A stretch of 46,478 nucleotides of DNA from an uncultured Lachnospiraceae bacterium (GTDB taxonomy: Bacteria; Bacillota; Clostridia; Lachnospirales; Lachnospiraceae). The position numbers were made by a program, and so were the translations under genes. Location of the stretch: positions 1-46,478 of the forward strand of contig CACWLA010000028.1 of the NCBI GenBank assembly GCA_902761665.1, given 5' to 3'. The notes beneath the pieces were generated by a model, which was not told the DNA's origin, did not search any database, and was given only the letters and a program-made list of their open reading frames with translations. Position 1 is the first letter of the stretch; the number at the start of each line of letters is the position of its first letter. Below are positions 1 through 42,173 of the stretch, in pieces.

Positions 1-878
1 GAGGAACCGAGGCCGGCCTCGTTCGAGAAAATACCGCGCTTGAAGCCCATCTTGATTGCCGTACCCACGGCGCCGCCGGCTGCTGCGCGCGCCGAGAACG
101 CGAATTTGAAGATCGCGCCGAAGATCTGTCCTAACAGATCGAGATGCGTAAACAGGATGACGAGTGAGCCGAGAATGTAGATGATCGACATGAACGGAAC
201 GAGCTTTTCGGTCACGCTCGCGATGCGCTTGATGCCGCCGATGATGACGAGCGCCGCAAGGATGAGGAGCACCGCACCGGTCGCCCAGCGGGGGATGCTG
301 AAAGCCGCCTGCATGTTGCCGGCGATCGTATTTGCCTGCGCGAGGTTCCCGATGCCGAAGGAGGCGAGGACCGCAAAGCAGGAAAAGAGGACCGCAAGTA
401 CCCGGCCGACTGTCTTCATGCCTTTCTTTGCACCGAAGCCGTCGGCCAGATAATACATGGCGCCGCCTGCCCAGTCGCCGTTTTTATCGCGGCGGCGGTA
501 GAAAATGCCGAGGACATTCTCGGAGTAGTTTGTCATCATGCCGAAGAAGGCGGAGAGCCACATCCAGAAGACCGCCCCGGGACCGCCGACCGCGATCGCG
601 CCGGCAACGCCCGCGATGTTGCCGGTGCCGACAGTCGCCGCCAGCGCCGTGCAGAGGGCCTGGAACTGCGAGATCGTTCCCTTCTCATCGGTATGAGACC
701 TGACTTTTTTAGTAAAAATACTCCCGATCGTGCTCTTCATCCAGTGTCCGAAGTGTGTGATCTGGAAAAATTTCGTAAGGACCGTCATCAGGACGCCCGT
801 GCCAAGCAGGATCGCGATGCCGAACCAGCCCCAGATGAAATCGTTCAGTTCGCCTGCAATGAAGTCCAGAATTTTCAT
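1..878 (-). CDS. Sodium:alanine/glycine symporter (AGCS family), 3' end outside the window
   Basis: Inner-membrane symporter expected to import alanine or glycine with Na+. About 292 N-terminal residues are visible; the rest lies beyond position 1. My translation begins MKILDFIAGELNDFIWGWFG and contains the family signature GTGNIAGVAGAIAVGGPG followed by AVFWMW, then several hydrophobic helices and the conserved NEAGLGS near the window edge. The ATG at 876-878 follows a strong AGGGGG ribosome site. A glycine riboswitch occupies the leader, so glycine is the likely physiological substrate (inference from regulation). A sigma-A-like promoter lies at 1131-1159. Family assignment is firm; the exact amino acid carried is not. 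Confidence 0.93.
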   Translation of the reverse strand, partial: MKILDFIAGELNDFIWGWFGIAILLGTGVLMTVLTKFFQITHFGHWMKSTIGSIFTKKVRSHTDEKGTISQFQALCTALAATVGTGNIAGVAGAIAVGGPGAVFWMWLSAFFGMMTNYSENVLGIFYRRRDKNGDWAGGAMYYLADGFGAKKGMKTVGRVLAVLFSCFAVLASFGIGNLAQANTIAGNMQAAFSIPRWATGAVLLILAALVIIGGIKRIASVTEKLVPFMSIIYILGSLVILFTHLDLLGQIFGAIFKFAFSARAAAGGAVGTAIKMGFKRGIFSNEAGLGS

Positions 879-920
879 GTTTCCCCCTTCGGCCGTCCGG
901 ACGGACCGGGAACGCAAAGG

Positions 921-945
921 CGGAAGCTGCCTTCCGGCGCTTCCG
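921..945 (-). promoter_or_regulatory. Hairpin in the symporter leader, candidate riboswitch expression platform
   Basis: CGGAAGC/GCTTCCG stem extended by GCC/GGC around a GGAA loop with one bulged A, about 10 bp in all, between the glycine aptamer and the start codon. The downstream minus-strand sequence (CCTTTGCG) is only mildly U-rich. It may therefore act as a weak terminator or a structure alternating with the aptamer; the mechanism is inferred. Confidence 0.45.
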
Positions 946-992
946 TCTTCCTCAAACAAATATAACATCTGATCGGTCCATCCGGACCGTCT

Positions 993-5527: not shown

Positions 5528-6730
5528 ATGCTCCGTAGAGACGGAATATTATTCAGGCGCGGGGTGATCCCCGCGCTTGTTTTATCCATTCTGTTGGCAG
5601 CCGCTGCGGCGGGGGCCGGCTTTTCCGTGCTGAAAAGCGCCGGCGAAGGTGCCGCGCGCGCGGAGCTCGTGGTGGTCGACGAGGAGAATTCGCTCTACAG
5701 CCGCATTGCGGTCAGTACCGTAGAGGGGCAGAGTTACATTCAGAGCATCTTGTCCGTCGATACCGAGCGCAGAGAGGAAAGGGCGCTTAAGCGGCTGGAG
5801 GCCGGCGAATGCGCCGCGGTGATCGTTCTTCCCAAGGGATTCGTGAACGATATCTCGGTTGGTCATGAAGCAAAAGGACGGATCATCCTGTCCGAAGCCG
5901 CAGCCGCCTCCGCCGACATCGTAGCCTCGGTCGCGCTTTTCGGCGAGCGGCTTCTTGCCGCCGGGCAGTACGGCGTTTTCGCAGGGCAGGAGCTGATCTG
6001 GAAATACGGCCTCGGCGCGGATTTCGAGCAGAAATACCTTTTGAAAAGCAATACGGGGCTGCTTGACGCAGCGCTCTCGCTCTTCGACGAAGCGTTCACC
6101 GTGGAAGCCCTGCCCTACGACGGGACCTCTCTCCCGCTCGCGGGATATTACGCCTCCGCCTGGCTGGTGCTCTTCTTCATGCTCTGCGGCCTCTTCTTCA
6201 CGGGGCTGTATCTGACCGACAACAAGCCGGCCATGCTGACGAGGCTCTACGCCCTCGGCGTAAAGCCTTTCGGCTTTTTCCTGGGCAAATGGCTGCTGCC
6301 GCTCTGCTTCCGGCTGCTGCTCGGCGCGGGGATCCTCTTCGAGCTCTCACGCTTCATGCCGCTCACGCTCAGCCCGCTTTCGCTGCTGCTGTTCCTGCTC
6401 GGAACGGCGTTCATCAGCCATTTCGTTTCTGCGGTCTGCGTGATCACGGCCGACCGGAGCGCGGGCTTCGGGATCGTCACGGCGCTCGCCGCCGCGGGAC
6501 TATTTCTGATGGGCGGGCTCGTCCCGCGCAGCATGCTCGGCCGCACGCTGGTCGGCATCGGGCGCTTTACGCCTTCCGGCCTCGCTGCTTCGTTCTTCGC
6601 GCCGCTTTTCGGCGGGAAAGCCGACTGGCTCTGCGTTGGGCTCGCACTTCTTCTTGCCGCCGCCCTGCAGCTTTGGACGCTGCGTGCACTCTCCCTGCGG
6701 CCGATCCGGGAAGGAGGTGACGAACAGTGA
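5528..6730 (+). CDS. ABC-2 type exporter membrane subunit
   Basis: 400 residues. There is an N-terminal helix (PALVLSILLAAAAAGAGF), then a roughly 150-residue soluble extracytoplasmic domain beginning ELVVVDEENSLYSRI with the AAVIVLPKGFVNDI segment typical of ABC-2/YhgE-like subunits. About five further helices follow, including LLAAALQLWTLRAL at the end. The late GGLVPRSMLG...GIGRFTPSGLA segment matches the ABC2_membrane pattern. GAAAGGA precedes the ATG. Its stop overlaps the GTG of the next gene by 4 bases, so the two subunits are probably translated together as a heterodimer energised by the ATPase at 3190. Confidence 0.88.
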   Translation: MLRRDGILFRRGVIPALVLSILLAAAAAGAGFSVLKSAGEGAARAELVVVDEENSLYSRIAVSTVEGQSYIQSILSVDTERREERALKRLEAGECAAVIVLPKGFVNDISVGHEAKGRIILSEAAAASADIVASVALFGERLLAAGQYGVFAGQELIWKYGLGADFEQKYLLKSNTGLLDAALSLFDEAFTVEALPYDGTSLPLAGYYASAWLVLFFMLCGLFFTGLYLTDNKPAMLTRLYALGVKPFGFFLGKWLLPLCFRLLLGAGILFELSRFMPLTLSPLSLLLFLLGTAFISHFVSAVCVITADRSAGFGIVTALAAAGLFLMGGLVPRSMLGRTLVGIGRFTPSGLAASFFAPLFGGKADWLCVGLALLLAAALQLWTLRALSLRPIREGGDEQ

Positions 6731-7713
6731 CTTCTCTCCGCTTCGCTGTCAAACGGCTTTTCGTAACGCCCTGGTTCACGCTTTTCTGGCTCCTGATCCT
6801 CGTCATTCCCGTCATGGCGCAGCGCGCTGCTGCCGATGTGGCCGTGCCGGCTCCGGGTTATGCGATTGAAGGCAGCGCCGACGAAGATGCCGTGCGGATA
6901 GCCGCCTATCTGGAGGAAGCCGGTTTCCGGCGTTTCGCTTCACGGGAGGCGCTCCGCGAGGCCGTCGATCAAAGAGAAGCTGACGCAGGCGTGGTCATTC
7001 CGGGAAATATTTCCTCAAAACTCCGAGAAACTGGTATTGGGAACTGCCTTCTCTTCATAAAATCCCCTAATTCTTTCCTGCCGGATCTGTGGCAGGAGCA
7101 TGCTTCGGCCGCTCTCTTCGGCGTTTACGCACCGTATGTCATGGCAGATGCTCTGGACGGCGCCGCACTCAGTGATGAGGAGATCTTCGCCGCCTATTAC
7201 GACCGCTTCGATGCCGGGAAGCTGTTCAGTTTCGACATCAGCAGTGCGAAAGGGCATGTGGAGCCGCTGACCGAACGGCAGGACCGTTTCTTCCTCGGTG
7301 CGCTCTCACTTCTCCTCTTTGCCGCGGCTTTCTATGCAGCCGCCGAACCGCTTACGGATGAGACCCGCGCCCTTTCCGCCCGCAGCGGCAGGAAAGCAGC
7401 GCTCGCGCATTTCTTCCTGCCCGGCGCCGCGGTGCGTTATCTGCTGCTGTGGCTTGCGGGAGCCGGCGCCGCGCTCCTTTGCGGAAGGCCGACAATGCTG
7501 CCTGCGCTCGCGCTTTACGTCCTGCTTCTCGCCGTATTCGGCCTTGCGCTGAAAGCGATTCCCGGAAGCAGCTGGCAGGGCATGCTCTGTCTCTTCCTCC
7601 TGCTCATCTCGCTCGCCCTCTGCCCGGTCTACGCCGACCTCTCCCTGGCTCTTCCGGCCGTTTCCGTGATCCGCCGTTTCCTCCCGCCTTACTGGCTGTG
7701 GATGATGGTTTAA
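6727..7713 (+). CDS. Second, divergent ABC-2 type membrane subunit
   Basis: 328 residues. It starts at GTG 6727 after an ideal AAGGAGGTGA site (6711-6720), overlapping the previous stop (GTGA). The layout mirrors its neighbour: N-terminal helix (WFTLFWLLILVIPVMA), an outer domain with a DAGVVIPGNIS segment, then about five helices ending PPYWLWMMV. Sequence conservation with ABC-2 permeases is weaker than for the gene at 5528, so the call rests on topology and operon position. A hairpin terminator follows at 7727. Confidence 0.75.
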   Translation: MTSLRFAVKRLFVTPWFTLFWLLILVIPVMAQRAAADVAVPAPGYAIEGSADEDAVRIAAYLEEAGFRRFASREALREAVDQREADAGVVIPGNISSKLRETGIGNCLLFIKSPNSFLPDLWQEHASAALFGVYAPYVMADALDGAALSDEEIFAAYYDRFDAGKLFSFDISSAKGHVEPLTERQDRFFLGALSLLLFAAAFYAAAEPLTDETRALSARSGRKAALAHFFLPGAAVRYLLLWLAGAGAALLCGRPTMLPALALYVLLLAVFGLALKAIPGSSWQGMLCLFLLLISLALCPVYADLSLALPAVSVIRRFLPPYWLWMMV

Positions 7714-9149: not shown

Positions 9150-10442
9150 ATGAACAACAACACAAAAGACAAGAAATATTCCCTGAAAAACAATCCCGTA
9201 GCCCACAGCATCCGCTATCTGGTCAAGTGGTCCCTTTTTGCCTGTGCCGCAGGCGCTGCCGGCGGACTGACCGGCGGACTGTTCGCGAAAGCGATCGGCT
9301 TCGTCACCTCCGTCCGTACGGATAAGCCCTGGATCCTGTACCTCCTGCCCCTCATCGGCGCGGTCATTGCCCTCCTTTACATGGGACTCCGCGAGGAAAA
9401 GAACCGCGGGACAAACATGATCCTGACCGCAGTCTCGGAAGGCAACGACGTCACCGTTCCGACCGGACCGCTCATCTTCGTCACCACGGTCCTCTCCCAT
9501 CTCGGTGGCGCTTCCGTCGGCCGGGAAGGCGCCGCCCTGCAGCTCGGGGGCTGGCTCGGCCGCCGCTTCGGCGAACTTCTGCGCTTTAACGACGACGACC
9601 GCCGCATTGCCGTCATGAGCGGCATGAGTGCCGTGTTCGCCGCACTCTTCGGCACGCCTGTTGCCGCCGCCATCTTCTCCATCGAAGTCATCCGCATCGG
9701 CGTCTTCCACTACGTTGCCCTCATCCCCTGCGTCTTCTCCGCCTTCATCGGCTCCGGCATTGCGAAACGCCTCGGTGTGGAACCGGAACTGTTTCCGATC
9801 GAACAGATCCCGTGGGCAGGTCTTGAAAACCTCCTCAAGGCTGCCGTTCTCGGCCTTCTCTGCGCCCTGCTCTCGATCCTGCTCGTCTTCACTTTCCACA
9901 AAGCCTCTGAGCTTTCCCGGAAACTCATTCCGAACGCGGTCCTGCGCGCTGCCGCCTGCGGCGCTCTGATCACCGGCCTTACGCTCCTTCTCGGCACTGC
10001 GGATTACAGCGGCGCCGGCACGGGCCTAATCGAAAAAGCCATGGCCGGAGAAGCCGGAGCCTTTGCCTTCCTGCTGAAACTCATCTTCACGGCGCTTGCC
10101 CTGGCCGGCGGCTTTAAGGGCGGTGAGATCGTTCCGACGCTCAGCATCGGTGCCTGTTTCGGTGCGCTATTCGGCAGCATTGCGGGGCTGCCCGTTCCCT
10201 TTGCCGCCGCGCTCGGCATGATCGCACTCTTTGCCGGCGCCACGAACTGCCCCATCGCCTCCCTCATGATCGCCATGGAAATGTTTAACGGCCGCGGCCT
10301 CCCGTTCTTCGCGATCACGGTCACCGTTTCCTTCGTCCTCTCGGGCTATTACAGCCTTTACGGCAGCCAGCGCTTCGCCTTCTCGAAGACCGGGATCAAG
10401 GTGGAGGAGATGCAGAAGCAAAAGCAGAATCAGCAAAACTGA
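9150..10442 (+). CDS. ClC-family chloride channel or H+/Cl- antiporter
   Basis: 430 residues with many helices. Signature segments are SHLGGASVGREGAALQLG (116-133), containing the gating Glu126 in GREGA, and the later GGFKGGEIVPTLSIGACFG, equivalent to the anion-binding GxFxP region. Length and topology match bacterial ClC proteins without a CBS domain. The external Glu argues for a transporter-type ClC, but the anion (Cl-, F-, nitrate) cannot be decided. The ATG at 9150 has almost no Shine-Dalgarno sequence. Its leader carries a GCAAGG/CCTTGC hairpin (9084-9119), which may affect expression. A terminator follows at 10472. Confidence 0.93.
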   Translation: MNNNTKDKKYSLKNNPVAHSIRYLVKWSLFACAAGAAGGLTGGLFAKAIGFVTSVRTDKPWILYLLPLIGAVIALLYMGLREEKNRGTNMILTAVSEGNDVTVPTGPLIFVTTVLSHLGGASVGREGAALQLGGWLGRRFGELLRFNDDDRRIAVMSGMSAVFAALFGTPVAAAIFSIEVIRIGVFHYVALIPCVFSAFIGSGIAKRLGVEPELFPIEQIPWAGLENLLKAAVLGLLCALLSILLVFTFHKASELSRKLIPNAVLRAAACGALITGLTLLLGTADYSGAGTGLIEKAMAGEAGAFAFLLKLIFTALALAGGFKGGEIVPTLSIGACFGALFGSIAGLPVPFAAALGMIALFAGATNCPIASLMIAMEMFNGRGLPFFAITVTVSFVLSGYYSLYGSQRFAFSKTGIKVEEMQKQKQNQQN

Positions 10443-10471
10443 AGTCCATGACCGGCAGAACCGCCGTCATG

Positions 10472-10505
10472 AAAAAAGCGCAGACCTCACGGCCTGCGCT
10501 TTTTT
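10472..10505. terminator. Bidirectional terminator between ClC and AEC genes
   Basis: AAAAAAGCGCAG (10472-10483) and CTGCGCTTTTTT (10494-10505) form a 12-bp stem with T-runs on both strands. The flanking genes are convergent. Confidence 0.93.
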
Positions 10506-10523
10506 CGCGTCATCAGCGGCGCG

Positions 10524-11429
10524 TCAGAACAAAAGAGTACACAGAAGGGTCACCGCGACCATGCTGTAAAGCAGATTGGCGGATACCCCGAAGGCGACCT
10601 CGCTGCCTTCAAATCCCTGCGTGAGCGCCATGGCCGGCGATGCACTCGGGATCGGCGAGAACAGGACGAGGATCATCGTGCTCCGGATCTCCCCGAAAGG
10701 GATGACCCGGAACCAGACCAGCAGCGCTGCGCTTATCGTAATGACAAGGCGCACGGCCAGCGCCGTGATATTGGTCTTCGGCAGTTGTTTCGGAAATTCA
10801 AACAGCAGGCCGAGGGCCAGCAGGGACACCGCCGCGTTGGCATTCGCAATGGGTCTGATCGCCGTGATCACGACGTCCGGGATCGAAATGCGGAGAAGGC
10901 ACAGCAGCATCATGGCGAGGCTCGTCATGGCAGCGATATTGCTGAGAAAGCCCTTGCCGATCTCCTTTAGGCTGACTTTGTGTTCTCCGGCAGTCAGGAG
11001 CCCGATCATCAGCGGCGTAATGAAGAAGAAGCTGAAGGTAATGGGCAGGTTGAACATGACGAGCGATGCGATCTCATGTTCCGTCGCGAACATCTGCAGG
11101 ACCGGCAGCGCGAAGCCCGTCGTATTGAAGCAGGGAATGCAGTACTGCAGGATAAAGACCGTCTCCTTCGGCTTCTTGCGGCTCAGGATCACCGCTGCCG
11201 CGATCAGGACCGCGTTGACGCCCATCCCCCAGAGCAGCGCGCCGACCAGCTCACCCGACAGGACCTTGCCGTTCAGGTTGCAGATATACACGAAGGGAAG
11301 CAGGATGCGTATCGCCACCTTTGACAGCACTTTCGCCGTCGATGCCGGGAAAGTCCCCGTCTTCTTCATCAGATAGCCGATCATGATGATCAGCATGATC
11401 CCTGCCGTTTTGATCAGTACCGTCAGCAT
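10524..11429 (-). CDS. AEC (auxin efflux carrier) family transporter
   Basis: 301 residues, about ten helices in two halves. It starts MLTVLIKTAGIMLIIMIGYLMKKTGTFP and has STAKVLSKVAIRILLPFVYICNLNG, the N-terminal AEC pattern. Bacterial AEC members move organic anions such as malate or malonate; the substrate is unknown. It has a strong private promoter (11483-11511) and is transcribed alone, ending at the shared terminator at 10472. Two further AEC genes lie at 26497 and 27453, but this one is clearly more divergent from them than they are from each other. Confidence 0.9.
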   Translation of the reverse strand: MLTVLIKTAGIMLIIMIGYLMKKTGTFPASTAKVLSKVAIRILLPFVYICNLNGKVLSGELVGALLWGMGVNAVLIAAAVILSRKKPKETVFILQYCIPCFNTTGFALPVLQMFATEHEIASLVMFNLPITFSFFFITPLMIGLLTAGEHKVSLKEIGKGFLSNIAAMTSLAMMLLCLLRISIPDVVITAIRPIANANAAVSLLALGLLFEFPKQLPKTNITALAVRLVITISAALLVWFRVIPFGEIRSTMILVLFSPIPSASPAMALTQGFEGSEVAFGVSANLLYSMVAVTLLCTLLF

Positions 11430-11617: not shown

Positions 11618-12982
11618 ATGGAACAGTATGACATCCTGGTCATCGGCGCGGGGCCGGGCGGCTATTCGCTCGCCATCGCCGCAGCCAAGCGCGGCCTGAA
11701 GGTCGCGGTATTTGAAAAAGAACACGTCGGCGGCACCTGCCTGAACGTCGGCTGCATCCCGACCAAGTTCTTCGTGGACAAGGCAAATGCGCTGGAAAAA
11801 GCCCGCGCGCTTACGGCGCAGAGCATCTTCGACCGTGTGCCCGGTTTTGATTTCGCGAAGATCGTGGAAGGCAAGGACGAAGTCGTCGGCAAGCTTACCG
11901 GCGGCGTCAGTTTCCTGCTGAAAAAGACCGGCTGCGAAGTCGTGAGCGGCGAGGCCGTCCTGAAACCCGACCGGGTCGTGGAATGCGCCGGCAGGGTATT
12001 TCAGGGAAAGAACGTCATCATTGCGACCGGTTCCGATACCCTCGTCATCCCCATCCCGGGGCATGAGTTCTGCATTGATTCCACCCGCGCGCTCAGCCTG
12101 CCGGCCGTCCCGAAAAGCATGGTCGTCATGGGCGGCGGCGTGATCGGCCTTGAGCTTGCCTGCGCCTTTGCTGCGTTCGGGACAAAAGTCACGATCGTCG
12201 AAATGCTGCCCGAGATCATGGGCCGTGAGGAAAAGACCGCCGTCAGAATGGTCACCCGGAACATGGAAGCCATGGGCATCACGATCAGGACCGGTGCAAG
12301 GATGCTGCGCGTGGAAAAGGACGGCGAACTGCTGAAGGCCGTTTATGAGAAAGACGGTGCCGAAGAAACGGTTACCTGCGAGCAGGTCCTGATGGCTGTC
12401 GGAAGAAAAGCCGTTCTGCCCGGGATCGATGCGGAGGCGCTGGGACTCGCGCTTGACGCGAAGAGATGCGTCAAAGTGGACGAACGGCAGCGCACGAACC
12501 TGCCCGGGGTCTACGCCGTCGGCGACGCTGCGGGCGGCCTGCAGCTCGCCCACGCTGCCTATGCGGAGGCTGAAGCCGCGCTTGCCGACATCCTCGGTGA
12601 AGCGCATGAGAGCGCGCCCATCCCGGCCTGCACCTACACCATCCCCTGCTTTGCCAGGGTCGGCCTGACGCTGAAGGAAGCCCGCGCCGCCGGATACGCT
12701 CCCGCCCTCGGTACCTTTGATTACAGTGCCAACGGCATGGCGCTTGCCGAAGGCGCCGCCGGCTGCGTGTTCGTGGTCGCGGACAAAGCCTCCGGCCGGA
12801 CCCTCGGCGTCACCGTGGTCGGCCCCGACGCTGCCGAACTCATCGCCCTCGGCGCAAAAGCCGTCGCTGACGGCCTGACCACCGCCGACTGGGAAAAGAT
12901 GGTCGTCGCCCACCCCTCGCTCACGGAATCCCTCCGCGAAGCTGCCCTCGACTGCTTCCGGAGATCGGTACATAAGGGCTGA
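11618..12982 (+). CDS. lpdA: Dihydrolipoyl dehydrogenase
   Basis: FAD flavoprotein that reoxidises dihydrolipoyl groups and reduces NAD+; it is the L-protein of glycine cleavage and E3 of 2-oxoacid dehydrogenases. 454 residues. FAD-binding GAGPGG (10-15), redox disulfide GGTCLNVGCIPTK (Cys41, Cys46), NAD-binding GGGVIGLE, second FAD segment YAVGDAAGG, and C-terminal active-site His432/Glu437 in AHPSLTE. There is no N-terminal lipoyl domain. AAGAGG precedes the ATG. It is the only L-protein candidate in the window, but it stands alone, 24 kb from the gcv operon and without its riboswitch, so it may serve several complexes. Confidence 0.95.
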   Translation: MEQYDILVIGAGPGGYSLAIAAAKRGLKVAVFEKEHVGGTCLNVGCIPTKFFVDKANALEKARALTAQSIFDRVPGFDFAKIVEGKDEVVGKLTGGVSFLLKKTGCEVVSGEAVLKPDRVVECAGRVFQGKNVIIATGSDTLVIPIPGHEFCIDSTRALSLPAVPKSMVVMGGGVIGLELACAFAAFGTKVTIVEMLPEIMGREEKTAVRMVTRNMEAMGITIRTGARMLRVEKDGELLKAVYEKDGAEETVTCEQVLMAVGRKAVLPGIDAEALGLALDAKRCVKVDERQRTNLPGVYAVGDAAGGLQLAHAAYAEAEAALADILGEAHESAPIPACTYTIPCFARVGLTLKEARAAGYAPALGTFDYSANGMALAEGAAGCVFVVADKASGRTLGVTVVGPDAAELIALGAKAVADGLTTADWEKMVVAHPSLTESLREAALDCFRRSVHKG

Positions 12983-34482: not shown

Positions 34483-35178
34483 TCAGCTTTTTTTATACTT
34501 CATCCACGCAATCAGTATCGCGATGGCGCCGCTCGGGATGATCATGAAGCTGGTGGAGCCGGTGAGGCTCGGGACCAGCATGAACAGGATGCTCATGACA
34601 AGCAGCGGCCAGACGGCCGTGCCGATGTTCTTCCGGTAATATTTGTACGCCATGGCGCCGAAAAGAGCCGGAACGACCTGGTCGAAGGCGGGCTGGAGCG
34701 CCGGATTCTGCAGGATAGGCTGCAGGGGGATCAGCAGGGCAACGCCGGCCGCAAGTACCAGAATGGTGACAAGCGACGAGGTCGCGATCGACAGGGTGGA
34801 AATGATCTCGTTCTCCGCCGTGCCGGTCTTCGCGCCGACGATGTCCCTCGCGTTCATGGCGCAGGGGATCTTCATGTTGATGAGGTTCCCGGTGATGAAG
34901 GCGAGGTAGGTGCCGCCCGCGCCGAGCATGGGCGTGTAGACCAGAAACTCCGCGATGCAGCTCACGAAATAGACGATGCCGATCGAAAGGAAGCCTCGGC
35001 CGACCGCCTTAAAATCAGGCATCGCACCGAGGAAAGCCCCCATGACGAAAGGGACTCCGGTCAGCAGGATCAGGGTAATGATACAGACGACGCGGCCGAT
35101 GACGTGCGTGCGGTCATTGTACGCCTCGAAGTTTTTCGCTTTCTCTTCTTCCGTAAGGATGATCTTCTTCTCTTCCAT
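34483..35178 (-). CDS. Multi-pass membrane protein, partner of the DUF5058-like gene
   Basis: 231 residues. A short charged N-terminus (EEKKIILTEEEKAKNFEAYND) precedes about six helices. The segment GAGGTYLAFITGNLINMKIPCAMNA and the conserved-looking DIVGAKTGTAENEIISTL loop suggest a transport or channel function (inference). AAGGAGG precedes the ATG. It lies 12 bp after the DUF5058-like gene, so the two are co-expressed and may form one complex. Confidence 0.8.
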   Translation of the reverse strand: MEEKKIILTEEEKAKNFEAYNDRTHVIGRVVCIITLILLTGVPFVMGAFLGAMPDFKAVGRGFLSIGIVYFVSCIAEFLVYTPMLGAGGTYLAFITGNLINMKIPCAMNARDIVGAKTGTAENEIISTLSIATSSLVTILVLAAGVALLIPLQPILQNPALQPAFDQVVPALFGAMAYKYYRKNIGTAVWPLLVMSILFMLVPSLTGSTSFMIIPSGAIAILIAWMKYKKS

Positions 35179-35190
35179 CTTCTTACCTCC

Positions 35191-35937
35191 TTACAGCGCG
35201 GCCGCGATCGCCGCGGCAGCCATGCCGGCCAGCATGCTGGCGGCAAGGGCAAAGCCTTCGACCCATTCGGCTTTTTTCTTTTCTTCGATCCAGATGAAGA
35301 GCGCCATCACGACCGCGGAGACCGCGGCGACGAGCAGCGGGATCCAGCTGCCGCTGAAGGTGAAAAGTCCCTTCTCGGAAACGAAGCTGCCGATGTAGCT
35401 GCCGATGTAAGCAGAGACGAGGCCGATGAACATGGCGGTCATGGCAGCGTCGCCGAAGCCGCCGGCCTTAGCCGTCTTCGCGCCGCCCGCGCTCAGCTTT
35501 TTCAGGTACTTTTTGTTGAAGAATACGGAAAAGACCATGCCCCACATGATGCAGACGGCCATGAGGAAGGCGATGGTGACGAAGGCGCGGGGCGTCATTT
35601 CCGAGACAGAAAGGCCGGACAGCCCCGCCGCTTCCGCCGCGGCTTCGGCCACCTGCGTCTCATAGTGCAGGGCGCCGATGACGGAAAGGCGCAGCCAGGG
35701 CAGGGGCGTGCCGAGGGCGCCGGAAAGCGCGATGACGCCCAGCAATATGCCGAGGCTCGGCAGGACGGAGAAGGTGGCGCTGGCTGTGATGGTGCGCTTC
35801 ATTTTTGTCTTATCCATGCCGATGGCGATACCGGCGCGCCAGGCGCGGACCATGAAAAAGACCGAGACCCCGGCGACAAATAAGACGATGGCGCCGCAGA
35901 TCAGATACATGGTGGGACTGTTCAGTGTTTTCAGCAT
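35191..35937 (-). CDS. DUF5058-like multi-pass membrane protein
   Basis: 248 residues, about seven helices. The N-terminus MLKTLNSPTMYLICGAIVLF followed by VSVFFMVRAWRAGIAIGMDKTKMKRT matches my memory of DUF5058 proteins, as does the TASATFSVLPSLGILLGVIALSG block. Function unknown; the pairing with a second integral membrane protein suggests a two-subunit transporter. It has GAAAGGAGG before the ATG and a strong private promoter (35967-35995). Confidence 0.78.
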   Translation of the reverse strand: MLKTLNSPTMYLICGAIVLFVAGVSVFFMVRAWRAGIAIGMDKTKMKRTITASATFSVLPSLGILLGVIALSGALGTPLPWLRLSVIGALHYETQVAEAAAEAAGLSGLSVSEMTPRAFVTIAFLMAVCIMWGMVFSVFFNKKYLKKLSAGGAKTAKAGGFGDAAMTAMFIGLVSAYIGSYIGSFVSEKGLFTFSGSWIPLLVAAVSAVVMALFIWIEEKKKAEWVEGFALAASMLAGMAAAAIAAAL

Positions 35938-36068: not shown

Positions 36069-37475
36069 TTATTCTTCCTTCTTCCACCGCAGGACGGGAT
36101 TCCGCGCTGCCCTGACTTCGTCGGGCCGTCCGATCGCAGCGTGGTGCGGGGCGGTCTTCATGGTCTCGGGATCTTCGAAGCCCTGCTTGTACAGCTTGCG
36201 GAAGATCTCCGCGGCTTCGTCGAGCGTGGCCTTGCTCTCCGTCTCGGTCGGCTCGAGCATCAGCGCTTCGTGCACGATGAGCGGGAAGTACATTGTCGGC
36301 GGATGCATGCCGTAGTCGATCAGCGACTTGGCAACGTCCAGGGCAGAGACGCCGGTCTCCTTCTTGTACTTATCGAGCGTGAGCACGAATTCGTGCATGC
36401 AGATGCGGTCGAAGGCGGGCTCGAAGGTGCCTTTGATCTTCTCCATCAGGTAGTTCGCGTTCAGGACCGCGTTCTCGGCGGCTTCCGGAATGCCTTCCCG
36501 GCCGAGGGTCAGGATATAGGTGAGCGCTTTCACGACCACGAGGAAGTTGCCGGCAAAGCTTCTGACCTGCAGGCGGCCGGGGCCGTCCATGGTCACGGAG
36601 CAGGGCAGGAAGTCCGCAAGGAAGGCCTTGCAGCCGACCGCGCCGGCGCCGGGTCCGCCGCCGCCGTGAGGCGTCGCGAAGGTCTTGTGGAGGTTAAGGT
36701 GCACGCAGTCGAAGCCCATGTCGCCTGGCCTGACCACGCCCATGACCGCGTTCAGGTTCGCACCGTCATAGTAGCACAGGCCGCCTGCCTCGTGCACGAG
36801 TCTGGTAATCTCGAGAATGTTGCTGTCGAAGAGGCCGACGGTGTTCGGATTGGTCAGCATGAGGCCTGCCACGTCCGGGCCGAGCGCCGCCTTCAGGGCG
36901 TCCAGATCGACCAGGCCGTCGGGGCCGGAAGCGATGTTGACCACGTCAAAGCCGCACATGGCCGCCGTCGCGGGATTGGTCCCGTGCGCGGAATCCGGCA
37001 CGATGATCTTGCGTCTTGCTTCGTCGCCGCGGGACTTGTGATACTGCTTGATCAGCAGCACGCCGGTGAATTCGCCGTGCGCGCCGGCCGCGGGTTCAAA
37101 GGTCATGTCGTCCATGCCCGTGATCTCGCAGAGGAGTTCCTTCGCGGTCTCCAGCACCTTGCGGCAGCCGGCGGTATCGCGTGCGTCCGCAAGCGGGTGG
37201 ACGTGCGTGAATCCTTCAAGTGCCGCCGTCTCCTCGTCGATGCGCGGGTTGTATTTCATGGTGCAGGAGCCGAGCGGATAGAAGCCGCAGTTGACGCCGT
37301 GCACCTGCTTCACGAGTTCGGTGTAGTGGCGGGAAACTTCGGTCTCGGAAAGTTCCGGCAGGGCAGGCTTTTCCGCGCGCTTCATGGACGCAGGAAGGTC
37401 GAAAGCCGGAACGTCAAGCGCCGGCAGAAGATCCGAGCGGTGGCCGGGCATGCTTTTTTCAAAGATCAGTTTCAT
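36069..37475 (-). CDS. gcvPB: Glycine dehydrogenase (decarboxylating) subunit 2
   Basis: PLP-carrying half of the split P-protein; with GcvPA it decarboxylates glycine and passes the aminomethyl group to the lipoyl arm of GcvH. 468 residues. N-terminal NCGFYPLGSCTMKYNPRI and the PLP lysine Lys264 in HLNLHKTFATPHGGGGPG are diagnostic. AAAGGAGG precedes the ATG, which overlaps the gcvPA stop (ATGA). Last gene of the operon. Confidence 0.98.
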   Translation of the reverse strand: MKLIFEKSMPGHRSDLLPALDVPAFDLPASMKRAEKPALPELSETEVSRHYTELVKQVHGVNCGFYPLGSCTMKYNPRIDEETAALEGFTHVHPLADARDTAGCRKVLETAKELLCEITGMDDMTFEPAAGAHGEFTGVLLIKQYHKSRGDEARRKIIVPDSAHGTNPATAAMCGFDVVNIASGPDGLVDLDALKAALGPDVAGLMLTNPNTVGLFDSNILEITRLVHEAGGLCYYDGANLNAVMGVVRPGDMGFDCVHLNLHKTFATPHGGGGPGAGAVGCKAFLADFLPCSVTMDGPGRLQVRSFAGNFLVVVKALTYILTLGREGIPEAAENAVLNANYLMEKIKGTFEPAFDRICMHEFVLTLDKYKKETGVSALDVAKSLIDYGMHPPTMYFPLIVHEALMLEPTETESKATLDEAAEIFRKLYKQGFEDPETMKTAPHHAAIGRPDEVRAARNPVLRWKKEE

Positions 37476-38788
37476 GCGAGCGCCTCCTTTACGATGTCCG
37501 CGACTTCATCCAGTGCTGCCTTCGATGCCTTCTCGGTCACGCACCAGAGGATGCTTTCGCCGTCAGGAAGCAGCAAGCCGCCCAGAATGCCCTCGTCGGA
37601 AAGCGCGCCGAGGATCTCCCGGCAGTTCTCCTGACGGGTCACGAATTCATGGAAGAATCTGCCGGAGTACTCCAGCCGGCAGCCGGCTTCGACGAGTTTT
37701 GACGCCAGATAATGCGCCTTCGCCATGCACTGGCGGGCGACTTCGGCCATACCGTCCGGGCCCATCGTCGCCATGTACAGACCTGCCGTCAGGGCGCAGA
37801 GCGCTTCGTTCGAGCAGATGTTGGAACTGGCCTTTTCCCGGCGGATGTGCTGTTCGCGGGCCTGCAGGGAAAGGACGTAGGCTTTGCCGCCGCGGCTGTC
37901 GACAGTCTCGCCGACGATGCGGCCGGGCAGGCGCCGCATGTGCTTCTGCGTGGTCGCCATGAAGCCGAGATAAGGGCCGCCGAAGCCAAGGGGAAGTCCC
38001 AGCGGCTGGCCTTCGCCGACCGCGACGTCCGCCCCCAGTTCGCCCGGGGTCTTCATCACGGCAAGTGCGATCGGATTGCAGCTCATGACCGCCATCGCAC
38101 CGGCCTCGTGGACCGCAGCGATGATCTCTTCCGCGTCCTCAAAGAGGCCGTAGAAGTTCGGCTGTTGGAAGATCACCCCGGCGGTATCGGCCGCGAGCAT
38201 TTCCTTCAGAGCGGCAAGGTCTGTCTTCCCGTCCTTCGCCGGCACGACCTTCAGTTCGGCATTCGCGCCGTAGCAGTAGGTCCTGACCGTATTGATGACG
38301 TCCGGATGGACGGTTTCGGAGATCAGGGTGACGCTCCGCTTCCGGTCGCGGCACATCGCAGCCGCCTCCGCCGCCGCGCTCGCGCCGTCGTAGACCGAAG
38401 CGTTCGACACGTCCATCCCGGTCAGTTCGCAGATCATGGTCTGGTACTCGAAAATGGACTGCAGCACGCCCTGGCTCATTTCCGCCTGATACGGCGTGTA
38501 GGCCGTCAGGAATTCTTCCTTCGCGGGGATGTAGCGGACGATGGAAGGGATGTAGTGGTCGTAGGCACCGGCGCCGCGCAGGATCGTCTTGTAGTTCCTG
38601 TTCAGCTTTGCCATTCCCTCGAGCTTCGCCCGCACTTCCATCTCACTGAGGCCTTCCGGCAGGTTCAGAGGCCGGTCAAGCAGCACGCTTTCCGGAACGT
38701 CCTTATAGAGTTCCCGGACGTTTTCCATGCCGAGGGCTTCCAGCATCTCCCGCCTTTCCGCTTCGGAAGAGGGGATGTAGTGACCCAT
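37472..38788 (-). CDS. gcvPA: Glycine dehydrogenase (decarboxylating) subunit 1
   Basis: Other half of the split P-protein, PLP fold type I without the catalytic lysine. 438 residues: MGHYIPSSEAERREMLEALG, then AYTPYQAEMSQGVLQSIFEYQTM, and GFGGPYLGFMATTQKHMRRLPGRIVG, all typical GcvPA blocks. The start is one base after the gcvH stop, with GGAGG inside the end of gcvH. Confidence 0.98.
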   Translation of the reverse strand: MGHYIPSSEAERREMLEALGMENVRELYKDVPESVLLDRPLNLPEGLSEMEVRAKLEGMAKLNRNYKTILRGAGAYDHYIPSIVRYIPAKEEFLTAYTPYQAEMSQGVLQSIFEYQTMICELTGMDVSNASVYDGASAAAEAAAMCRDRKRSVTLISETVHPDVINTVRTYCYGANAELKVVPAKDGKTDLAALKEMLAADTAGVIFQQPNFYGLFEDAEEIIAAVHEAGAMAVMSCNPIALAVMKTPGELGADVAVGEGQPLGLPLGFGGPYLGFMATTQKHMRRLPGRIVGETVDSRGGKAYVLSLQAREQHIRREKASSNICSNEALCALTAGLYMATMGPDGMAEVARQCMAKAHYLASKLVEAGCRLEYSGRFFHEFVTRQENCREILGALSDEGILGGLLLPDGESILWCVTEKASKAALDEVADIVKEALA

Positions 38789-38789
38789 C

Positions 38790-39167
38790 TCATGCCTCCG
38801 TTTCGCAAAGGTCCGCGTAGGCCGCGGCGCTCAGGAGTTCTTCGGTATCCGTCACCTGCTCCACCTTGATGATCCAGTTGGCGTAGGGATCGTCGTTCAG
38901 CAGTTCCGGGGAATCCAGAAGTTCTTCGTTGATCTCTGCCACGATGCCGGTGACCGGGCTGAGCAGGTCGGACACGGCCTTCACGGATTCAACGTCGCCG
39001 AAGGCTTCGCCCGCAGTCACTTCGTCGCCGACTTCGGGCAGGTTGATGAACACGACGTCACCGAGCTCGTGCTGGGCAAAGTCGGTGATGCCGATAATGG
39101 CGATCTCGTCTTCCATGTTCAGCCATTCATGGTCCTTGGAATACTGTAACTGTGCAGGGTAATTCAT
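38790..39167 (-). CDS. gcvH: Glycine cleavage system H protein
   Basis: Lipoyl carrier that shuttles the aminomethyl group between P-, T- and L-proteins. 125 residues from the ATG at 39165-39167, chosen because ACAGGAGG lies just upstream. YSKDHEWLNME near the N-terminus and the lipoylated Lys63 in DVESVKAVSDLLSPV are classical. It lies 59 bp after the GcvT-SHMT fusion and one base before gcvPA. No lipoate ligase or lipoyl synthase gene is in the window. Confidence 0.98.
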   Translation of the reverse strand: MNYPAQLQYSKDHEWLNMEDEIAIIGITDFAQHELGDVVFINLPEVGDEVTAGEAFGDVESVKAVSDLLSPVTGIVAEINEELLDSPELLNDDPYANWIIKVEQVTDTEELLSAAAYADLCETEA

Positions 39168-39226: not shown

Positions 39227-41872
39227 TTATCTCAGCATGCCGGCAAGGCGGTCAAGCGCTTCGCCGAGTTCTTCGTCACTGAAGCAGTAGCGCATGGCAG
39301 TGTAACCGCCGCGGAGCGCGGCAGCGTCCTCTCCGACTTCCTTTCCGTTCAGGATGCAGTCCGCGATGAGGTCGGCGACCTTATCGAATTCCGCAGGACC
39401 GAAGCCGAAGCGAGTCATCTCGGAAACGCCCATGCGGAGCGCGCCGGAGGCCGTGAAGCCTTCCTCGTCGGGCGTCGCCTGGTAGTTCACGATGATGTTG
39501 TTCCGCTCCAGCCGCTCCGCGACCTCTGCGCCTTTGCCGTAGCCGACGCTTACGATCACCTGGTGGGTCTCGGTGTAATCCATGGCCGGGTCGCCTTCGA
39601 CCGTGAGGCCACGTTCCGCGAGTGCTTTCGCAAAATGCTTCGCGTTCGAAACGACTGCCTTCTGGTACTCATCCTTGAAGGTGTTCATCTCATAAGCCGC
39701 CATGAGCTGGCCGAGCTGCGTGCCGAGGTGGTGGTTGGAAACGCTGCCCGGGAAGACGCGCCGCTGGATGGTCTCCCACAGCTCGTACTTCAGATCGTCT
39801 TCGTCCCAGTTCGTGCCGATCACGCCGCGCTGCGGGCCGAAGAAGGTCTTGTGCGTCGAGCCGGTCACGATCTCAGCGCCTTCCTTGAAGGGTTCCTGGA
39901 AGTGCGGGCCGATGAGGCCGAGCACATGTGCCATGTCGTACATGATCGTGGTTTTGATGCCCTGTTCGTCCACGAACTTCCGGATCGCAGCCACGGGCTC
40001 TTTGTAAAGCACCATGCTCTTGCCGAAGATGATGAGTTCCGGTTTGTACTCGGCGATGACCTTCTTGGTCTCCTCGACGTCGATCTTATAGATGTTGTCG
40101 GGGCAGACCGGGAAATTGACGATCGCATTCTGCTCGGTCACGGGATCCACGGCGATGTAGTCGTGCAGCGCGCCCATGGGCTGCGCCGAAAGATGCCCGC
40201 CCTTGATGATGTGGTTGTTCAGAACATAGCCGAGGCGTTTGGGCGTCACCTTGCGGTTCAGGCGGTTCTTGAAATCCATGAGGGCTGAGAAGACTGCCGT
40301 GTTGGCCATCTGGCCGCTGGTGACGCGCGTCTCCGCCTCTTTCGCGCCGAGGTAATACTTCATTTCCTCCACCAGCTGCTGCTCGACCCAGTCGATGAAC
40401 TTCGTACCCTGGTAGTAGAAGATGTCCTTGTCGTAGAAGGATTTTACGGTCTTGTGTTCGGCATAGCGGCCGCTCGGATCCGACGAGGACAGGAGCCTTA
40501 CGGCGCGGCTCGGCGTGTTCTCCGAAGGGATCAGGTTGATGCAGCGGCGCTGGCGCCACTCGTGGTTGTCCGCAGCCTTCCCGATGAGGCGGACGGCCTT
40601 CTCGAGGCGGCTCCCCTCTTCCGGCGCGTGCTCTGCGAGCGTGTAGCCGTAAATGATCGGGCGCGCAAAAGGCGGCGCCATGGTGTCGAGGTGGCGTTCC
40701 GCAATGACGGCACGGATACGCTTTCCGCGAATGTCCACTTCCACTTCGTCGTCCGGACGGATGTCGCTGTCGACGTAAGCCATGCCGATCGCACGCTTCA
40801 TGACCTCTTCCGTGATCACGGATTCGAGGCCTTCGCCCTCTGCCTTATAGAAAGGCACCATGGTCCCGCTGGTGACCCAGCCGACCTGCCTGTCGCCCTT
40901 ATAGAGAGGCATGCCTGCACGCATGACGCCGCGGTCAAGGAGCGCGATGCACTGGATGCGGCGCGGCAGAGCTGCATTGTCGCTGTCATCTCGGTTCATG
41001 ATCCGCTGGTAGGCTTCGTACTGTCTTGCCAGCGCGGCGCGCCCGATGTATTCGCCCTTCTGCGGCGCGAAGCTCACGGCAAAGCGGGCAACCGGCGCGG
41101 AATAGATGGGCATCGGGACGCCTTCAGGATCCTTTCCCATCTCATGGCCGTAGAGCGGAAGTCCGGCTTCGAGGCGCAGCGTATCGCGGGCGCCGAGGCC
41201 TGCGGGGCGGGCGCCGAGTTCGCAGAGGCGGTTCCACAGCCAGGCGCCGTCTTCGGTCCTTACGAAGACTTCGTAGCCGAGCGGTTCGCCGGTGTAGCCG
41301 GTCTTCGCGATCTTTGCCTCGCGGCCTTCCAGCAGCACGGTATTCACGTAGTTCTTCATCGGCTCCGTGACCGGTACGCCGCCCGAGAGCGTCATCAGCA
41401 TGTCCTTGCTTGCCGGCCCCTGGACCGCGATACAGGCCCAGTCCTTCGAAATGTTCGTGATCGTGCAGTCATAGCCGCCGATGTGTTTGGTCAGATGTGC
41501 CAGATCCTTGTCGATGTTCGCGGCATTCACCACGAGCCACAGACGGTCCTCCTCAAAACGGTAGAGGTAGGCGTCGTCCACGGCGCTGCCGTCTTCGTCC
41601 GGCAGGATGCAGTACATCGCCCGGCCGGGCAGCAGGCCTTCGACGTTCGCACTCACGACGTGCTGCAGGAAGCGCACGCGGTCCTGCCCCTCCACCAGCA
41701 GGCGCCCCATGTGCGAGACGTCAAACAGGCTGCATTTGCTGCGGGTGTACAGATGCTCGGCCACGATACCCGTCGGGTACTGCACCGGCATCTCCCAGCC
41801 GCCGAAGTCCACCATCGTGGCGCCTGCCGCCACATGGATGTCATAAAGCTGTGTCCGTTTCAGTTCACTCAT
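39227..41872 (-). CDS. Fusion of aminomethyltransferase (GcvT) and a serine hydroxymethyltransferase-like domain
   Basis: 881 residues in one uninterrupted frame. Residues 1 to about 410 are a complete GcvT: VDFGGWEMPVQYP, FDVSHMG, the catalytic-Asp region AVDDAYLYRF (Asp99/100), GLGARDTLRLEAGLPLYGHE, and a C-terminal barrel with GWVTSG. It releases NH3 from aminomethyl-GcvH and makes 5,10-methylene-THF. Residues about 420-881 are a complete SHMT-like PLP enzyme: INLIPSENTPSRAVR, GRYAEHK, YYQGTKFIDWVE, Asp646 and His649 in YDMAHVLGL, and PLP lysine Lys675 in TGSTHKTFFGPQRG. GSTHK in place of bacterial TTTTHK resembles archaeal-type SHMT as I remember it. SHMT would consume methylene-THF plus glycine to give serine and THF. 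Start ATG after AAGGGAGGG. First gene of the operon, behind the tandem riboswitch. Confidence 0.94.
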   Translation of the reverse strand: MSELKRTQLYDIHVAAGATMVDFGGWEMPVQYPTGIVAEHLYTRSKCSLFDVSHMGRLLVEGQDRVRFLQHVVSANVEGLLPGRAMYCILPDEDGSAVDDAYLYRFEEDRLWLVVNAANIDKDLAHLTKHIGGYDCTITNISKDWACIAVQGPASKDMLMTLSGGVPVTEPMKNYVNTVLLEGREAKIAKTGYTGEPLGYEVFVRTEDGAWLWNRLCELGARPAGLGARDTLRLEAGLPLYGHEMGKDPEGVPMPIYSAPVARFAVSFAPQKGEYIGRAALARQYEAYQRIMNRDDSDNAALPRRIQCIALLDRGVMRAGMPLYKGDRQVGWVTSGTMVPFYKAEGEGLESVITEEVMKRAIGMAYVDSDIRPDDEVEVDIRGKRIRAVIAERHLDTMAPPFARPIIYGYTLAEHAPEEGSRLEKAVRLIGKAADNHEWRQRRCINLIPSENTPSRAVRLLSSSDPSGRYAEHKTVKSFYDKDIFYYQGTKFIDWVEQQLVEEMKYYLGAKEAETRVTSGQMANTAVFSALMDFKNRLNRKVTPKRLGYVLNNHIIKGGHLSAQPMGALHDYIAVDPVTEQNAIVNFPVCPDNIYKIDVEETKKVIAEYKPELIIFGKSMVLYKEPVAAIRKFVDEQGIKTTIMYDMAHVLGLIGPHFQEPFKEGAEIVTGSTHKTFFGPQRGVIGTNWDEDDLKYELWETIQRRVFPGSVSNHHLGTQLGQLMAAYEMNTFKDEYQKAVVSNAKHFAKALAERGLTVEGDPAMDYTETHQVIVSVGYGKGAEVAERLERNNIIVNYQATPDEEGFTASGALRMGVSEMTRFGFGPAEFDKVADLIADCILNGKEVGEDAAALRGGYTAMRYCFSDEELGEALDRLAGMLR

Positions 41873-41926: not shown

Positions 41927-41961
41927 AAAAAGAAGGCACGAAGACCAAAGGTCTTCATGCC
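41927..41961 (-). terminator. Riboswitch-controlled intrinsic terminator before the gcv operon
   Basis: On the minus strand GGCATGAAGACC pairs with GGTCTTCGTGCC (12 bp, one G-U) around a TTT loop, followed by TTCTTTTT. It sits immediately after aptamer II, where the expression platform of a glycine ON switch is expected. Glycine binding should disfavour it (inference from known glycine riboswitches). Confidence 0.85.
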
Positions 41962-42115
41962 TCCGTTTCAAGCCTGAGAGATTCCCCTTGCGGGTTGCAC
42001 CTTCGGCGTGCATGGCTGCACTTTTCGGAGTTTCGTCCCGATCCGATCCTTTTGCCTGAGAGTTTTTATCCCCTTCGGCGGCGCACGAAAAAAGCGCTCT
42101 CTCCCGAACCGTTCA
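41962..42115 (-). ncRNA. Tandem (two-aptamer) glycine riboswitch
   Basis: Two sets of the aptamer blocks occur in order on the minus strand. Aptamer I: GGGAGAGAGCG, GCCGCCGAAGGGG, CTCTCAGGCAAAAGG (about 42110-42040). Aptamer II: GGGACGAAACTCCG, CACGCCGAAGGTGCAA, TCTCTCAGGCTTGAAACGGA (about 42039-41962). The short linker between them is typical of the cooperative tandem class. It precedes a terminator and then the GcvT-SHMT gene. Confidence 0.95.
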
Positions 42116-42143
42116 ACCGACTTTTTCGAATTTTGCTGAAATC

Positions 42144-42173
42144 AGTCTATCACCCTCCGCAGCGCTTTGTCAA
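42144..42173 (-). promoter_or_regulatory. Promoter of the glycine cleavage operon
   Basis: On the minus strand consensus TTGACA (42168-42173) and TAGACT (42144-42149), spacer 18 bp, just upstream of the tandem riboswitch and inside the gap after the C26 hydrolase gene. Confidence 0.7.

Follow-up and report, generated by a model that had tools for sequence, protein, structure and literature searches.

A gene joining GcvT and serine hydroxymethyltransferase at the head of a glycine cleavage operon

One open frame for two enzymes

We analysed a stretch of 46,478 nucleotides (the window; contig CACWLA010000028.1 of assembly GCA_902761665.1) from an uncultured Lachnospiraceae bacterium, in which the aminomethyltransferase of the glycine cleavage system (GcvT, the T-protein) and a serine hydroxymethyltransferase (SHMT, elsewhere encoded by glyA) share one open reading frame (ORF). 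An earlier note, made from the letters of the DNA, had placed such a fusion at 39227..41872, and the ORF found there, on the minus strand (the note gave none), does carry GcvT in frame into SHMT. Neither a stop nor a frameshift, which the note had named as grounds for abandoning the idea, lies between the domains. The frame and its parts are:

39227..41872, minus strand: fused gcvT-SHMT gene, a single open frame of 881 amino acids (aa), ATG at 41872 and stop at 39227
40661..41872, minus strand: GcvT half, about residues 1-404; NCBIfam gcvT equivalog TIGR00528, 269.8 bits (cut-off 235.85)
40589..40660, minus strand: linker, about residues 405-428; conservation minimum, limits estimated
39230..40588, minus strand: SHMT half, about residues 429-881; PF00464, 145.8 bits (cut-off 27), best solved match 4uqv

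Three Pfam domains of the ORF score over their cut-offs: GCV_T (PF01571, residues 9-248, 8.1e-76), GCV_T_C (PF08669, residues 358-394, 4.8e-12, spanning profile positions 40-77 of 80 only) and SHMT (PF00464, residues 433-836, 1.8e-42). These matches support the presence of two apparently complete enzymes, GcvT and SHMT, within one chain. Among solved structures the SHMT half is closest to 4uqv and 4bhd (E about 1e-58, the next SHMTs following at about 1e-33), which we take to be the SHMT of the archaeon Methanocaldococcus jannaschii; the archaeal likeness suspected in the earlier note is thus borne out at this level. Identity to 4uqv, the nearest solved SHMT, is 36.7%, and to standalone clostridial SHMTs about 26-33%.

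Relatives of the query turned up in 560 stretches when species genomes were scanned, and the best 80 were kept (the other 480 possibly include plain GcvT). The fused frame is full-length in 77 of the 80, and the remaining three (L004, L063 and L080; L, G and C numbers are our labels for loci, genomes and contigs) are cut by contig ends. The loci nearest to the window protein, L002 (98%) and L003 (91%), are both titled Lachnospiraceae. One of the 77 comes from Oscillibacter valericigenes Sjm18-20, whose genome is complete (AP012044.1, L030). Beyond the 80 loci, plasmid pMM35_01 of Vescimonas fastidiosa MM35 (NZ_AP023416.1) encodes a fusion of 71.7% identity (WP_212821284.1, annotated as GcvT only). 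With a draft genome of 55 contigs, an assembly or annotation error that merged two genes has to be considered; the 77 full-length relatives, among them that in the complete Oscillibacter genome, and the Vescimonas plasmid refute it, and we regard its chance as negligible. The fusion is a widespread family rather than a single case.

Alignment of 78 fused proteins (the window's and the 77) gave 254 invariant columns, with conservation lowest in the linker region (residues 401-420 average 0.53, residues 421-440 average 0.65). All 32 positions that were checked are constant in 78/78 rows, barring a single unreadable X at H674: nine belong to the GcvT half, D99 and D100 among them, and 23 to the SHMT half, where the X falls. 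The key residues listed in the earlier note (D99/D100, D646, H649 and K675) are therefore present and identical throughout, as is R813. We take the GcvT positions to represent the catalytic aspartate region and folate-site residues, and K675, D646, H649 and R813 to be, by analogy with E. coli SHMT, the pyridoxal phosphate lysine, the aspartate, the histidine and the carboxylate arginine. In eight pairs the ratio of nonsynonymous to synonymous change (pN/pS) lies between 0.015 and 0.25 for both halves; both are under purifying selection. The SHMT half is the more constrained in the window-L002 and window-L003 pairs (0.038 and 0.070, against 0.117 and 0.178 for the GcvT half). We conclude that the fused gene is real and that it encodes a predicted bifunctional GcvT-SHMT protein, with both activities deduced from domains and residues.

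Operon and glycine riboswitch

In the window the fusion is followed on the same strand by the other genes of the glycine cleavage system, in the order gcvH, gcvPA, gcvPB:

38790..39167, minus strand: gcvH, 125 aa; PF01597 4.6e-40, TIGR00527 over cut-off
37472..38788, minus strand: gcvPA, 438 aa; NF001696, 570.7 bits (cut-off 364)
36069..37475, minus strand: gcvPB, 468 aa; NF003346, 677.4 bits (cut-off 441)

At 67 of the 80 loci gcvH lies within the stretch; it follows the fusion in 65 of them and precedes it in L078 and L081. Among the remaining 13, the sequence stops with the fusion or shortly after it in L004, L063 and L071 and extends further in ten. GcvPB was found in 47 of 50 fusion-bearing genomes, and the three misses (loci L010, L034 and L035) show gcvH, gcvPA or gcvPB pieces running to the contig end. 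Among 83 stretches compared by tblastn, 41 have lpd-like genes and 25 have lplA-like genes (L114 repeats L078). The window has a dihydrolipoamide-dehydrogenase-like ORF of 454 aa at 11618-12982 on the plus strand, about 36% identical to the L078 lpd; it lies 26 kb from the gcv operon and might supply the L-protein. At locus L077, L-serine ammonia-lyase (serine dehydratase) beta and alpha genes, both over NCBIfam cut-offs, stand between fusion and gcvH (5938-7466), and the predicted enzymes leading from glycine to pyruvate are there in one operon.

The leader of the window's operon contains the following elements:

42144..42173, minus strand: promoter-like site TTGACA - 18 - TAGACT, 10/12 consensus matches, a pattern match only
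42034..42116, minus strand: glycine riboswitch aptamer 1; RF00504, 62.7 bits (gathering score 32)
41961..42030, minus strand: glycine riboswitch aptamer 2; RF00504, 36.6 bits (gathering score 32)
41932..41964, minus strand: terminator-like hairpin of 15 pairs followed by a T run, sharing bases with the 3' strand of the aptamer 2 P1 helix

The 501-base region holds three terminator-like sites against a mean of 0.6 in shuffles. When P1 was forced in the window's leader, the hairpin that remained had 11 pairs and no longer adjoined the T run, at -69.9 kcal/mol versus -76.3 kcal/mol for the free fold. From this layout we infer a switch that glycine would turn on. The overlap between P1 and terminator is described for the window alone, because the automatic P1 search picked implausible helices in several leaders, the window's included.

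Fifteen of 81 sequences (the window and 14 other loci) made up the riboswitch test set, and in each of the 15 one or more glycine aptamers precede the fusion or its operon, six having two. L039 has aptamers despite the absence of adjoining gcv genes, and in L046 the aptamer lies about 1.7 kb upstream with an opposite-strand ORF in between. Of 14 leaders scanned for terminators, 10 have a hairpin followed by a T run; in those of L005, L020, L030 and L032 the scan detected none. A further glycine aptamer (61.1 bits) occurs in the window at 985-1073 on the minus strand, directly before a Na_Ala_symp (sodium:alanine symporter) gene at 3-968 (minus strand) that is cut by the window's left edge; this is probably a glycine transporter gene under its own switch.

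Other SHMT genes, distribution and origin

In the window's draft genome (2.13 Mb in 55 contigs, 94.27% complete) SHMT and GCV_T are each matched once, both times by the fused ORF; no separate glyA or gcvT was found in this draft, which answers the earlier note's question about a separate glyA. Sixteen genomes of the genus were sampled, 12 of them at least 90% complete. In 10 of these 12, the window's included, a frame of fused size (883-961 aa) is the only SHMT over the cut-off. One of the other two, G307, has an equally strong SHMT match (C86, 610-1824) in a 653-aa frame with one internal TAG near a contig start, reflecting either decay or assembly error, and the other, G300, has an ordinary glyA only (C107, L127) and no fusion; its SHMT sits on a very long branch (1.9) in a quick tree. 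The four less complete genomes yielded a fused-size frame (G303), a fragment (G304) and nothing (G308 and G313). Among 21 genomes of the family's other genera no fused-size SHMT frame was found; 19 have an ordinary SHMT, and G318 and G329 have none. It is unlikely that missing data alone hide a glyA in ten near-complete genomes, and the fusion stands in for glyA in the window's genus. In a wider set of 50 fusion-bearing genomes (50 of the 80 loci, completeness unstated, at least four shared with the genus sample), 30 have besides the fusion only weak SHMT matches (at most 32.4 bits) or none, and a second GCV_T match over cut-off occurs in nine.

The SHMT half was searched for at E 1e-40 in 391 genomes of the class and 398 of the phylum. 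A fused-size frame occurs in 6 and 2 of them, respectively, the window being counted in both; genomes were sampled evenly over each group and need not mirror its common genera. As to a close standalone relative of the SHMT half, these genomes returned only ordinary-size SHMTs at 33-36% identity, archaea and other phyla lying outside the search except for plasmids. A quick tree with 57 rows unites the 21 fused SHMT halves in one group (support 100 in the Shimodaira-Hasegawa-like approximate likelihood ratio test, SH-aLRT), and none of the 35 standalone clostridial SHMTs belongs to it. Four of these standalone enzymes (L119 and L121-L123), as well as 4uqv, fall on the fused side of the midpoint root; the branches are long, and a single row is presumed to be archaeal. 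Outside the fusions, 4uqv matches best (36.7%). An archaeal origin of the SHMT half appears likely from these comparisons.

The 78 fused GcvT halves were also placed in a quick tree against a single outgroup and without bootstrap. At L018 a standalone GcvT (9790-11082) directly follows the fusion; since it nests among the fused halves in that tree we do not take it for an ancestor, and it is perhaps a truncated copy. The simplest reading of the distribution is one fusion event followed by spread, including into the window's genus. L078, titled 'Calditrichales bacterium MX18-03' (JAJGRE010000001.1), was not counted as a second phylum: its coordinates are near-identical to those of the match in G553, a genome of the window's class, and its organism name is probably wrong, the two being apparently the same genome. 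L068 is titled 'Coriobacteriales' and L005 was labelled Bacteroidota, assignments that we treat as provisional.

Function and direction of flow

We favour, with a probability of about 0.68, a bifunctional enzyme, induced by glycine, that unites two steps of the known glycine-serine-pyruvate pathway in one chain; the activities, the ON polarity and the main direction are all predictions. GcvPA/PB would load lipoyl-GcvH with the aminomethyl group from glycine, the GcvT half would take this group over to give 5,10-methylene-tetrahydrofolate (methylene-THF) and NH3, and the tethered SHMT half would combine the one-carbon unit with a second glycine, yielding serine and free THF. Ample glycine would act through the riboswitch to permit transcription of the operon, and the net flow would be 2 glycine -> serine + CO2 + NH3 + NADH, the serine being used for biosynthesis or, in organisms with serine dehydratase, converted to pyruvate. 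This direction had been put forward in the earlier note; it gains indirect support from the aptamers upstream in 15/15 sequences and the serine dehydratase genes of the L077 operon, and a reverse or mixed direction keeps its place beside it. Because no other SHMT was found in the draft, the fusion probably also runs from serine to glycine when needed, and the presence of serC and Fhs in this genome likewise makes activity in both directions probable. Direct hand-over of methylene-THF between the halves is possible, as a putative extra feature.

Several observations weigh against this reading. No gcv genes stand beside the fusion at L031, L039, L040, L042, L047, L049, L050, L051, L056 and L080, where further sequence is present (in the genomes of L039, L040 and L051 gcvPB lies elsewhere), and tblastn detected serine dehydratase (the alpha gene) in only one of 83 stretches. 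An ordinary SHMT accompanies the fusion in 20 of the 50 fusion genomes (in G406 as two pieces), and the SHMT half scores below the NCBIfam bacterial SHMT cut-off (PRK00011, 270.3 against 335 bits). With serC present, serine need not come from glycine. Moreover, an ON switch on the only SHMT would keep the enzyme low when glycine is scarce, leaving glycine synthesis under those conditions unexplained. A threonine-aldolase-like gene (L125, 855-1892) matches PF01212 with 99.9 bits and reaches only 37.2 bits with the L-threonine aldolase model (cut-off 312); it, or glycine uptake, might cover such scarcity.

The same bifunctional enzyme could instead work mainly in the opposite sense, the SHMT half having a largely housekeeping role (serine + THF -> glycine + methylene-THF) and the cleavage system burning the released glycine to a second methylene-THF. 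The shared intermediate would then be glycine, not folate, and serine would yield two one-carbon units. The fusion being the only SHMT found in the window's genome fits such a role, as do serC in that genome and in 14 of 16 genus genomes and, upstream of the fusion at L056, genes of the formyltetrahydrofolate synthetase (FTHFS), FolD and cyclodeaminase types. L075 has a phosphoglycerate-dehydrogenase-like gene between fusion and gcvH, which would also fit, but it misses the cut-off for that enzyme (209.5 against 454 bits), and the glycine riboswitches before the gene together with the L077 serine dehydratase genes suggest a glycine-driven pathway. We consider the opposite main flow unlikely, if a serious contender. 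That the SHMT half carries out another reaction (as an aldolase, a transaldolase or with another acceptor), or is a structural or regulatory domain, seems to us quite improbable. Its failure to reach the NCBIfam SHMT cut-off, a distant match (150.8 bits against a cut-off of 650) of the fused protein to the model for fluorothreonine transaldolase and the low identities to solved and clostridial SHMTs given above would allow for it; the 23 checked SHMT positions, constant save for one X, the purifying selection on this half and the fused-size frame as sole SHMT over cut-off in 10 of 12 near-complete genus genomes argue the other way.

A more far-reaching version of the favoured glycine-to-serine enzyme is held only tentatively, and we doubt that it is right in all its parts. 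Here a GcvT and an archaeal-like SHMT would have been joined once into a single-chain glycine-to-serine synthase that spread through Bacillota and passes methylene-THF between its sites, and in one genus it would have replaced the ordinary SHMT, placing all serine-glycine exchange under a glycine riboswitch.

Each half has a counterpart among known enzymes. The GcvT half resembles the T-protein in being full-length, over NCBIfam and Pfam cut-offs and in an operon with gcvH, gcvPA and gcvPB, and it differs in the C-terminal SHMT, the listed solved GcvT chains having 364-401 residues. The SHMT half likewise agrees with glyA products in its PF00464 score and its constant positions, and departs from them in being fused to GcvT, in scoring under the NCBIfam bacterial cut-off and in its 36.7% identity to 4uqv. 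Sarcosine oxidase alpha (soxA) also has a GcvT-like domain fused to an enzyme feeding it, but its partner is an amine oxidase and SHMT remains a separate gene; the soxA model matches the fused protein with 117.4 bits (cut-off 1164). On several plasmids glyA adjoins sarcosine oxidase genes.

Joining successive enzymes of a pathway is a known kind of arrangement, and methylene-THF is the meeting point of GcvT and SHMT, in glycine metabolism as well as in the reductive glycine pathways engineered for formate assimilation. A natural GcvT-SHMT fusion is a direct test case for one-carbon channelling and a possible part for reductive glycine pathways, and the SHMT role of the fused half can be put to the test in a genus where an ordinary glyA was almost never found. 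Annotation hides this SHMT function: the only annotated carrier that we viewed is named GcvT alone, so a reconstruction based on names could judge such genomes to lack SHMT.

The glycine-serine-pyruvate pathway itself is established. In Clostridium acidurici, as described, gcv genes, SHMT, serine dehydratase and a two-aptamer glycine riboswitch before gcv serve this pathway, as they may here, but glyA, gcv and dehydratase are separate genes at separate loci (PMC3519856). For Actinomycetota, glyA and serine dehydratase are described as enriched under tandem glycine riboswitches; the gcvT/glyA/serine dehydratase operons of that other phylum have the same enzymes and switch type, in separate genes (PMC12452182). 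The new element is the covalent joining: the openly licensed literature searched, as far as its text was available, contained no description of a GcvT-SHMT fusion, in line with the earlier note, whose author knew of none.

After gcvPB the window continues on the minus strand (34486-35937) with a DUF5058 membrane protein gene and another ORF that resembles a membrane protein and matches no Pfam family; the DUF5058 gene is likewise present in L002.

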